DNA from: Anaerolineae bacterium | GTDB lineage: Bacteria > Chloroflexota > Anaerolineae > DRVO01 | Length of the DNA stretch: 37,275 nucleotides | Assembly (NCBI GenBank): GCA_013178015.1 | Contig: JABLXR010000041.1 | Location: 1-37,275, forward strand | Direction: 5' to 3' | In this document: positions 22,816 through 30,418 of the stretch, piece by piece | How positions within the stretch are numbered: the stretch's first letter is position 1 | Layout of the letters: each line of letters begins with the position of its first letter | The notes under the pieces: model-generated | The model's input: the letters and a program-made list of their open reading frames with translations, nothing else | What the model was told of the DNA's origin: nothing | Database searches by the model: none | Position numbers and translations under genes: made by a program

Positions 22816-24179
<1,364 letters not shown>

Positions 24180-26696: not shown

Positions 26697-27554
26697 TCAG
26701 TGGCTCGCGGGCACCTCGGCTTCTCCCCTCGAATGGACAGAGCTTCTGGCCCTCCAGACCACGGCCACGGCGACGAGGTAGGCCAGCCAAGACGACAGCT
26801 CCATCAGAGACGGGTCGCCATTGTAGCCAAACAGAGCCTTGAGGAAGCTGCCCACGTACCCGTTCTCGTGTAGCAGAGGATAGCTCCCGTCCGGCCTGAC
26901 CGGCGGGTTGATGTCCCAGACGTGCTCCACCACGATGGGGACCACGCCCGCTTCCTGTAGCTCGTGGATCCCGTGCGCCACCAGCCCGGCGGCGAAGAGA
27001 ATGAGTATGACGCTGGTCACGTTGAAGAAGGTGCGCACGTTGACCCTCATCGCCCCTCTGAAGGCAGCGTACCCCAGGACGATGGCGGCCGCCACCCCGG
27101 CCAATGCGCCCACCAGGCTGGCGCCCCCGGCGGCGAAACTGGCGGCTCCCAGGAAGATTACGGTCTCGATGCCCTCTCTGAGGATGGCGACGAACACCAG
27201 GAGCAAGAGGCCGAACCGGCGCGCCGCCGCCACCTCGGTGGCCACGCGCTCCTGGAGCTCGGCCGCCACCTGCCTCTGGCCCATCATCCACAGGATCATA
27301 GTGGTCAGGAGCGCCGCCCCCACGAGCATAGTCACGCCTTCGAACACCTGCTCCGCTGCCCCGGTGAACCCCCCGGCCAGCCATTCGAAGATGAGAGCGC
27401 CTACGGCGCTGGCGGCCAGCCCGAGGGCGACCCCCCAGTAGACCACGGGGCGGTACCGCCTCTGGCCGGTCCGATCGAGGTAGCCGAGTACGATGCCGAC
27501 TACCAGAGCGGCCTCCAACGTCTCTCGGAAGGTGATGAGAAAGCTCGGAATCAA
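26697..27554 (-). CDS. FTR1-family iron permease (EfeU-like)
   Basis: A 285-residue membrane protein with about seven membrane segments. The two R-E-x-x-E iron-binding motifs are RETLE at residues 10-14 and REGIE at 127-131, in the first and fourth segments as in EfeU and Ftr1. A periplasm-facing loop near the C terminus (EHVWDINPPVRPDG) is typical of bacterial members. The protein would import iron, usually after oxidation by a partner; no EfeO or EfeB is here. The start is TTG behind AGGAGG with a 7-nt gap. It lies 17 nt after the stop of the read-through rhodanese frame, which supports cotranscription with the sulfur genes. Confidence 0.9.
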   Translation of the reverse strand: MIPSFLITFRETLEAALVVGIVLGYLDRTGQRRYRPVVYWGVALGLAASAVGALIFEWLAGGFTGAAEQVFEGVTMLVGAALLTTMILWMMGQRQVAAELQERVATEVAAARRFGLLLLVFVAILREGIETVIFLGAASFAAGGASLVGALAGVAAAIVLGYAAFRGAMRVNVRTFFNVTSVILILFAAGLVAHGIHELQEAGVVPIVVEHVWDINPPVRPDGSYPLLHENGYVGSFLKALFGYNGDPSLMELSSWLAYLVAVAVVWRARSSVHSRGEAEVPASH

Positions 27555-27571: not shown

Positions 27572-28090
27572 CTAGGGCGACGCCGAGGTCACGGGGTAAC
27601 CGGCCGCCTCCCAGGCGGCCAGCCCTCCCCGGAGGGCCTTGACGTCGCTATAGCCCCAATCTGCAAGCATCCGCGCCGCACGGGCGCTACTCTGCTCGGC
27701 AGGTCAAGTACAGATGGTGATGATCTCGGCATCGCGGGGAAGCTCACGATAGCGGTCCTCGAGCTCCGCCAAAGGGAGCGATATCGCCCCCGGGATATGC
27801 CCCCGCCGAAAGTCTTCCTCGCTGCGAACGTCTACCAAGAGAGCCTCCCCGGCGTCGTGGCGTGCCTTGGCTTCGTCCACCGATACTCGAAGCACCTCCG
27901 GGTAGGGGATGGAAGTGCCCCCCGATGTGGGCGCGGCGCCAGCTCGCGCTCCGGTGCCGGAGCTGCGGGCCAGCACTATGCCCACCACCAGCAGGACCAG
28001 CAGGCTCCCCACCGCCAGGCTCCAGGTTCCCCCCTTATCTCGTGCGCGGCGCGCCTTCGGGCGCGACCTCCTCGAACTCCGTCCGCTCAA
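27572..28090 (-). CDS. Membrane-anchored rhodanese with in-frame TGA (selenocysteine candidate or nonsense mutation)
   Basis: The first 128 codons give a basic N terminus, one membrane anchor (about residues 23-42) and the front half of a rhodanese domain (VDVRSEEDFRRGHIPGAISLP), ending in ITICT. A TGA at 27704-27706 follows. The same frame then continues PAEQSSARAARML and LRGGLAAWEAAGYPV, the normal rhodanese second half, to a TAG at 27572-27574. In families I know, this loop reads C-T-C-P-(A/N)-E, so TGA sits at a Cys position. With TGA read through, the protein has 172 residues and ends 17 nt before FTR1. A TTG start has GGAGA upstream. No Sec machinery is visible in the window. If TGA is a stop, the product lacks half the domain. 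Confidence 0.7.
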
Positions 28091-28149
28091 GCGCGTCTCC
28101 TTCTCGCTCCGTCAGTGGCCGTCGCTCACGCTGCCCTCGCAGGAGCGCG

Positions 28150-29007
28150 TCATCGTCTGGCAGCCCCTTCCGCTGCCAATACCTCGTTCATGCTGCCGGA
28201 GCGAAACCCCTGCAGATCCAGAGCGACGTACCGGTATCCCAGCTGCTTCAGCCCCTGGACCACCGAGTGCCGCTGCTCGATCAGCCGGCCGAAGTCGGCC
28301 GGCTCCACCTCCAGCCGAGCCACGTCCCCGTGGTGCCGCACGCGTACTTGGCGCAGCCCGATCTTGCGCCGCAGTAGATCCTCCGCCTGCTCCACCTGCC
28401 GCAGCCCCTCCCCAGTGATGGACGAATGATAGGGAAAGCGCGAAGCCAGACAGGCCATGGCCGGCTTGTCCCAAGTGGGAAGACCCAGATCGCGGGAGAG
28501 CATCCTTACCTCGATCTTCGTCAGACCGGCCTCGATCAGAGGCGCTCTCGCGCCCAGCTCTTGCGCTGCCCGCATCCCCGGCCGGTGGTCGCCCAGGTCG
28601 TCCACGGTGGCACCGTAGATTACCTGGGGCAGGCCTTCCTCCCTAGCTACCTGCCACAGCTCCTCGAAGAGGTGAGTCTTGCAGAAGAAGCAGCGGTCGG
28701 GAGGATTGCGCCGGAACCGCTCATCCGTCAGTTCATCGGTGAGGATGATGCGGTGCCGGGCCCCCAGCCTGGATGCCAGCTCCCGTGCCTCCTGAAGCTC
28801 ACTCGCGGGATAGGTCTCAGACTGGGCCGTGACCGCCAGCACCCCCTCCCGCCCCAGGGCCCGTAGGCTGGCTGCCAGGAGGTAAGTGCTGTCCACCCCT
28901 CCGGAGTAGGCTACCACCACTCCCCCGGTGGCCTGCAGGAGCGATAGCAGACGCTCCTGTTTGCCCTTGGCGGCACTGTCTGGAGCTCCACCGGCGCCGT
29001 CTGCCAT
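28150..29007 (-). CDS. larE: LarE-family ATP-dependent sulfur transferase, three-cysteine type
   Basis: A 285-residue PP-loop enzyme. YSGGVDST at residues 34-41 binds ATP. LarE adenylates a carboxylated nicotinate-derived substrate and adds sulfur during synthesis of the nickel-pincer cofactor of lactate racemase. Cysteines C106 and C109 (RCFFCK) and C186 (MACLASR) form the three-Cys set reported for cluster-dependent LarE proteins; single-Cys LarE instead gives up its own sulfur. LarB, LarC and LarA are not in the window, so the sulfur acceptor may be different. The ATG follows GGAGG. The gene starts 12 nt after cysK, in an operon with a rhodanese. Confidence 0.87.
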   Translation of the reverse strand: MADGAGGAPDSAAKGKQERLLSLLQATGGVVVAYSGGVDSTYLLAASLRALGREGVLAVTAQSETYPASELQEARELASRLGARHRIILTDELTDERFRRNPPDRCFFCKTHLFEELWQVAREEGLPQVIYGATVDDLGDHRPGMRAAQELGARAPLIEAGLTKIEVRMLSRDLGLPTWDKPAMACLASRFPYHSSITGEGLRQVEQAEDLLRRKIGLRQVRVRHHGDVARLEVEPADFGRLIEQRHSVVQGLKQLGYRYVALDLQGFRSGSMNEVLAAEGAARR

Positions 29008-29019
29008 GGAATGCCTCCG

Positions 29020-29952
<933 letters not shown>

Positions 29953-29974
29953 CTCGTGCCTCCAGAGCACTGTA

Positions 29975-30418
29975 TCAGATGCAGTACGTGGGAGCCGCAG
30001 CGGCTTGCCGGCGGCGATAGCGGTCGGCCAGGTCGGCGAGGGTTACTGACTCCAGTACCTCCATGGCGGCCCGATGCATTCTGGCCCAGACTTCCTGCGT
30101 GACGCAGGTCTCCCACCGGCTACACTCGGCAGGGGACGCGATGCAGGCCACGGGCGGGTCGGGCCCCTCCATCACCTCGTACACCTCTCTCACGGTGATG
30201 GTCGCCGGGTCGCGCGCAAGCAGGTAGCCACCCTGAGCCCCGCGGACGCTTTGGACCAGCCCGGCGATCCGGAGGCGGCTCATGAGAGCCTCAGCGTACT
30301 TCTCCGAAAGTTCCTGGCGGCGGGCGATCTCGGCCAGGCTGAGGGGCCCCTCGTCATGGTGCAAGGCCAGCTCCAGCATGGCTCTGGTGCCGTAGCGGGT
30401 CTTGGTGGTCAGGTTCAT
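29975..30418 (-). CDS. Rrf2-family transcription regulator with three-Cys cluster motif
   Basis: A 147-residue winged-helix repressor. The HTH is in [25 protein letters not shown], and the wing is [14 protein letters not shown]. Cysteines C92, C99 and C105 (spacing C-x7-C-x5-C) match the Fe-S ligand region of IscR/NsrR-type proteins. It probably senses cluster, iron, sulfur or redox status and controls its own operon. The promoter upstream has a TAGTAGTC/TGTAGTC motif next to the start site that could be its operator. It heads cysK, larE, the rhodanese and FTR1. CymR-like control by cysteine is an alternative, but CymR lacks this Cys trio. Confidence 0.92.

Follow-up and report, generated by a model that had tools for sequence, protein, structure and literature searches.

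The window, i.e. the whole stretch of 37,275 nucleotides that was analysed, is contig C41 of a 4.57-Mb genome with 95% completeness. A series of genes lies on the same strand in the order Rrf2-family regulator, cysteine synthase, LarE-like protein, rhodanese, FTR1 permease, acetyl-CoA synthetase-like enzyme, and O-acetylhomoserine sulfhydrylase-type enzyme (Table 1). The rhodanese frame, as read from the sequence, comprises 173 codons of the minus strand (28090-27572) and contains an in-frame TGA in the active-site loop. The stretch TGT-ACT-TGA-CCT-GCC-GAG, translated as C-T-U-P-A-E, places the TGA two codons past the catalytic Cys, and 43 further codons lead to a TAG, as described in the initial annotation. 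The distance from the TAG to the TTG start of FTR1 (27554) is 17 nt, while from the TGA it is 149 nt, both in agreement with the earlier values.

Table 1. Features of the rhodanese locus and of its surroundings in the window.
Feature	Position	Strand	Remarks
Candidate Sec-rhodanese gene	27572..28090	(-)	TTG start, TAG stop; 172 residues if UGA is read as Sec; same TGA in homologues
In-frame TGA, codon 129	27704..27706	(-)	Predicted selenocysteine, +2 from catalytic Cys127
Shine-Dalgarno AAGGAG ahead of the rhodanese TTG	28097..28102	(-)	From the sequence
Predicted membrane-anchor helix, residues 23-43	27962..28024	(-)	AlphaFold2 helix 23-43, after Arg/Lys-rich N-terminus
Bacterial SECIS, upper stem and loop GCGCC-CGUGC-GGCGC	27673..27687	(-)	Loop 21 nt after UGA, G second in loop
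FTR1 iron permease	26697..27554	(-)	PF03239; 17 nt downstream of rhodanese
ATP-pyrophosphatase-fold protein, LarE-like (name by judgement)	28150..29007	(-)	Weak NAD_synthase / Asn_synthase Pfam matches
Cysteine synthase-like PLP enzyme	29020..29970	(-)	PF00291; adjoins rhodanese in same-genus L031
Rrf2-family regulator	29975..30418	(-)	PF02082; homologue adjoins rhodanese in L040
Cys/Met metabolism PLP enzyme, probably O-acetylhomoserine sulfhydrylase	22836..24149	(-)	PF01053; follows rhodanese in L031 and L040

With the TGA translated as Sec, the protein consists of an Arg/Lys-rich start, a hydrophobic helix, a linker, and the rhodanese domain. The PF00581 profile spans the TGA (residues 70-163, profile positions 1-102 of 102, 73.5 bits versus a gathering score of 22.2), which bears out the presence of a normal second half of the domain beyond this codon. 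In the AlphaFold2 model the rhodanese domain is confident (block pLDDT 94-98) and is accompanied by the helix of residues 23-43; in respect to both fold and anchor, the product is thus predicted to be a membrane-anchored rhodanese. From the positive-inside rule we infer that the domain is placed outside the cytoplasm. The solved structures closest to the model in a Foldseek search are ordinary rhodaneses (best match 3tp9, E 4.8e-10; GlpE 1gmx, E 7.2e-7, 28% identity), and the fold is shared with the classical single-domain proteins GlpE, YgaP, and PspE. The active-site loop is clearly different. The classical loop is C-R-S-G-N-R-S, whereas that of the window type (C-T-U-P-x-E-x-S-S-A-R) is longer and has no Arg at position 5; in the window protein it reads C-T-U-P-A-E-Q-S-S-A-R, which, despite the presence of Cys127, is not the C-x4-R loop of thiosulfate sulfurtransferase.

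The hairpin pointed out initially, in which GCGCC and GGCGC pair round CGTGC, is present and begins 17 nt after the TGA. The published limits for a bacterial SECIS are an apical loop of 3-9 nt, an upper stem of 4-16 bp, a G in the first two loop positions, a spacing of 16-37 nt, and an energy of -7.5 kcal/mol or lower (PMC13188914). The window hairpin lies within all of them (5-nt loop, 5 bp, G in second position, 21 nt, -17.3 to -21.3 kcal/mol). The accompanying caution that hairpins arise cheaply in GC-rich DNA was justified, as ~35% of the synonymous shuffles of the window gene alone give an equally good one. An open frame of 43 codons has a chance of ~37% at the base composition found here. 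Hence, the open tail and the hairpin of this single sequence constitute weak evidence for Sec, and it is conservation that decides. An Rfam search with the hairpin returned nothing, the best match being a chance sRNA (E 0.27).

In a search of 60 relatives, nearly all members of the top tier carry an in-frame TGA in the same column, within C-T-U-P-x-E-x-S-A-R. The class-wide search (396 genomes) was run with a profile having Cys at the Sec position, so that Cys forms would score equally; among the matches listed above 107 bits, all carry the in-frame TGA. Of the aligned non-redundant sequences scoring above 100 bits, 77 have the TGA in this column; the few without it are rhodaneses whose loops are ordinary or shorter, along with one shifted loop (C-S-D-C-U). 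The expectation that Cys is the usual residue at x of C-T-x-P-A-E does not apply to the clade of the window gene, where the codon is nearly always TGA. A pattern scan of the genomes of named species yielded at least 119 stretches; since the pattern required TGA, their TGA content is not evidence, and this role falls to the class search. The verified non-redundant rhodaneses of the scan (at least 99) belong to Chloroflexota (at least 58), Acidobacteriota (at least 18), Myxococcota, Nitrospirota, Rokuibacteriota, Thermomicrobiota, Actinomycetota, Pseudomonadota, Gemmatimonadota, and Planctomycetota, while at least three are not assigned to a phylum. Within this TGA-requiring scan the form thus occurs in at least 10 named phyla.

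The alignment of homologues at this codon shows TGA, with the exception of the Chloroflexota family f71 (L281-L290), the loop of which (Y-GDAxRP or Y-TDQ) contains neither Cys nor Sec. These proteins were considered as Cys versions of the Sec-rhodanese and rejected, both active-site residues being lost; they may be catalytically dead descendants. The selA gene is present in 11 of 12 f71 genomes. Four plasmid-encoded Cys rhodaneses were likewise rejected as CxC orthologues, as their loops are ordinary (CRSGNRS or CRGPYC).

The hairpin is kept together with the codon. A bSECIS-like hairpin is found in all 174 non-redundant sequences (174/174), and in 157 of them the best one has the identical offset, with a 5-nt loop 21 nt after the UGA. 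Two of the stem pairs join wobble positions: Ala7-Ala9 (positions 21-27), paired in 173/174 sequences with T-A replacing C-G in 2, and Ser6-Ala10 (positions 18-30), paired in 170/174 with T-A replacing C-G in 12. The wobble-wobble covariation at 21-27 and 18-30 exceeds that of column shuffles; no excess is seen for the other combinations of wobble positions that were tried. Codon choice is constrained as well: Ala7 is GCC in 168/171 (39% in the rest of these genes), Ala9 is GCG in 159/163 and Ala10 is GCG in 154/171 (32% elsewhere for both), and Arg8, the codon of which supplies the G-U of the loop, is CGT in 151/166 (13% background in the same genes); these statistics treat related sequences as independent, and their weight rests on the effect sizes. 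The window carries the exact consensus AGC GCC CGT GCG GCG. The constraint at synonymous sites is strong enough for the SECIS of this clade to be a possible model for searches.

The search of the source genome for selA, selB, selD, and tRNA-Sec, suggested at the outset, recovered all four: selA (536 bits), selB (336 bits), selD (342 bits), and tRNA-Sec (76.7 bits, also called by ARAGORN). The selD gene (L014, G000:C50:15894-16829) also encodes a selenoprotein, its in-frame TGA lying at RAAG-U-AAK. In the case of the named genomes carrying the Sec-rhodanese gene, selB is above the cut-off in 8 out of 8, including Levilinea saccharolytica; this species is cultured and has both genes, which makes the Sec-rhodanese testable. 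For selA, a value above the cut-off is found in 52 of 60 class genomes, hence its co-occurrence is a weak test. G006 (70% complete) and G632 (95% complete) gave no selA, and G004 and G683 contain only fragments or weak matches, though TGA genes are present in all of them. In G632, the contig with selA may be missing, sequences may have been misbinned, or Sec-tRNA may be made by another route.

The window gene is very probably a functional selenoprotein gene in which the UGA at codon 129 is decoded as Sec. The initial suggestion of a possible selenoprotein finds independent support in the complete Sec machinery, the TGA conserved across phyla, and the conserved SECIS with its synonymous-site constraint and covariation. 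The opposite view, that the gene is an ordinary Cys rhodanese cut short at 128 residues by a single-base nonsense mutation or by an error of assembly, draws on the fact that TGA is one substitution away from TGC or TGT. It is highly improbable, given that 77 non-redundant class homologues share the TGA at this column, with no homologue carrying Cys in this type of loop, and that the SECIS is kept at synonymous sites; an assembly error is untenable, as the same TGA is found in dozens of independent assemblies. A changed genetic code, with TGA read as an ordinary amino acid, would also leave the frame open past the TGA and has a negligible probability, since FTR1, the LarE-like gene, Rrf2, and MnmA of the window all end in TGA, which is thus an ordinary stop elsewhere, and the Sec machinery is complete.

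Rhodaneses of the CxU kind are already known as predicted selenoproteins, and the window gene adds a well-supported member below the curated cut-off. The family in question is NF041203 (rhodanese_LYCAU, 'Rhodanese-like domain-containing protein form 3', with one Sec; PMC13188914), and the CxU form also appears in PMC9312934. In NCBIfam, the window protein and all homologues tested have their best match in NF041203, with which they share the rhodanese domain and the C-x-U motif (C-T-U in the window). However, with 77.6 bits the window protein stays below the cut-off of 115 and is therefore not placed in this equivalog, and the Chloroflexota homologues tested reach 61-96 bits; the motif is also different, mostly C-T-U in the window type and C-A-U in NF041203. 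The cut-off is passed by the delta-type homologues L217, L193 (U-T-U), and L161. Rhodanese forms 1, 2, and 4 have one Sec at the position of the catalytic Cys, in UxxS or UxxG (PMC13188914). They share with the window protein the rhodanese domain and a Sec in the active-site loop, but in these forms Sec is the nucleophile, while in the window protein Cys occupies this place and Sec lies at +2; U-T-U relatives combine both. Standard annotation likely presents the window gene as a truncated rhodanese of 128 residues, and may do so with many of its relatives, in Chloroflexota as well as in other phyla, that score below the curated cut-off. With the window gene, a well-supported clade of Sec-rhodaneses is added.

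In respect to the mechanism, the hairpin 21 nt downstream would bring in SelB with Sec-tRNA-Sec to decode UGA codon 129 as Sec, and the product would be a membrane-anchored rhodanese with the loop Cys127-Thr-Sec129-Pro-Ala-Glu. Cys127 may take up sulfane sulfur as a persulfide, or be otherwise oxidised; Sec129 would then attack the Cys127 persulfide, releasing sulfide and leaving a Cys-Sec selenenylsulfide to be reset by a thiol reductant. The enzyme would therefore be a redox (sulfane-sulfur or thiol) reductase and not a classical thiosulfate:cyanide transferase, acting outside the cytoplasm and perhaps feeding or protecting sulfur assimilation. The topology, substrate, and catalytic steps are all putative, and the role of sulfane-sulfur reductase is proposed tentatively.

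The neighbouring genes point in this direction in the window, in the same-genus locus L031, where the rhodanese is flanked by cysteine synthase and the sulfhydrylase, and in L040, where it is flanked by Rrf2 and the sulfhydrylase. The genomic context varies widely, and support for the sulfur role is therefore weak. Heavy-metal P-type ATPases at 16 loci and ArsR-type regulators at 8 in other genomes, as well as SCO1-, PCu(A)C-, and DUF1573-like neighbours elsewhere (assigned by eye from the sequence), would favour a selenoprotein for metal or redox stress of the envelope, reducing thiol-disulfide or metal-thiol species and not sulfane sulfur for assimilation. Such a function is conceivable, with some doubt: the sulfur-assimilation genes next to the rhodanese in the three loci named above speak against it, and each context (metal ATPases, ArsR regulators, second rhodaneses) is present in a minority of the TGA loci in a survey limited by short loci. 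The iron permease does adjoin the rhodanese, as initially emphasised, but it is an incidental, non-conserved neighbour; a functional link was rejected, as a single TGA locus carries a recognisable FTR1.

The window gene has the C-T-U form. In at least 20 homologues from several phyla, the codon of the catalytic Cys is replaced by a second TGA, which gives U-T-U, and the hairpin is the same. The two TGAs, six nucleotides apart in U-T-U or U-A-U, are found in L033, L038, L063, L105-L111, L159, L168, L177, L185, L193, L201, L231, L270, and L291-L296; the U-T-U sequences L291-L296 were added by the phylum-wide search, and L295 is the same gene as L270. L295 belongs to G632, the 95%-complete genome without a selA match. 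In a tree computed with both active-site positions masked, the U-T-U label changes 14 times, at least 3 of them on well-supported branches, with few columns available and many forks unresolved. The family of the window gene seems rather likely to include a double-Sec variant, the active site of which would work via a diselenide without Cys. No published description of a UxU motif in a rhodanese was found in the open-licence literature, and a table in a 2026 review gives form 3 as CxU, with a single Sec, and contains no UxU (PMC13188914). The rhodanese/DsbD fusion-like double selenoprotein TsoB (NF045694, UxxxxU, 2 Sec; PMC13188914) also has a rhodanese domain with more than one Sec, but it is a fusion with a different Sec spacing, while the window protein is not fused and reaches 32.8 where the cut-off is 805. 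With the U-T-U form, Cys-Sec and Sec-Sec active sites could be compared in natural proteins.

Other positions of the TGA were also observed. In L037, L137, and L138 it directly follows a Cys located a few residues further on (Y-GDR-C-U-PP, Y-CGR-C-U-PP, and Y-CSD-C-U-PP, respectively). The source genome contains a second TGA rhodanese, L057 (G000:C6:110942-111250, minus strand, TGA at contig position 111070), with the loop Y-U-GFRHPGRSSSERAA, in which the TGA takes the position of the catalytic Cys. The same arrangement is present in its relative L062 (G044:C71), and this looks like another form of Sec-rhodanese.
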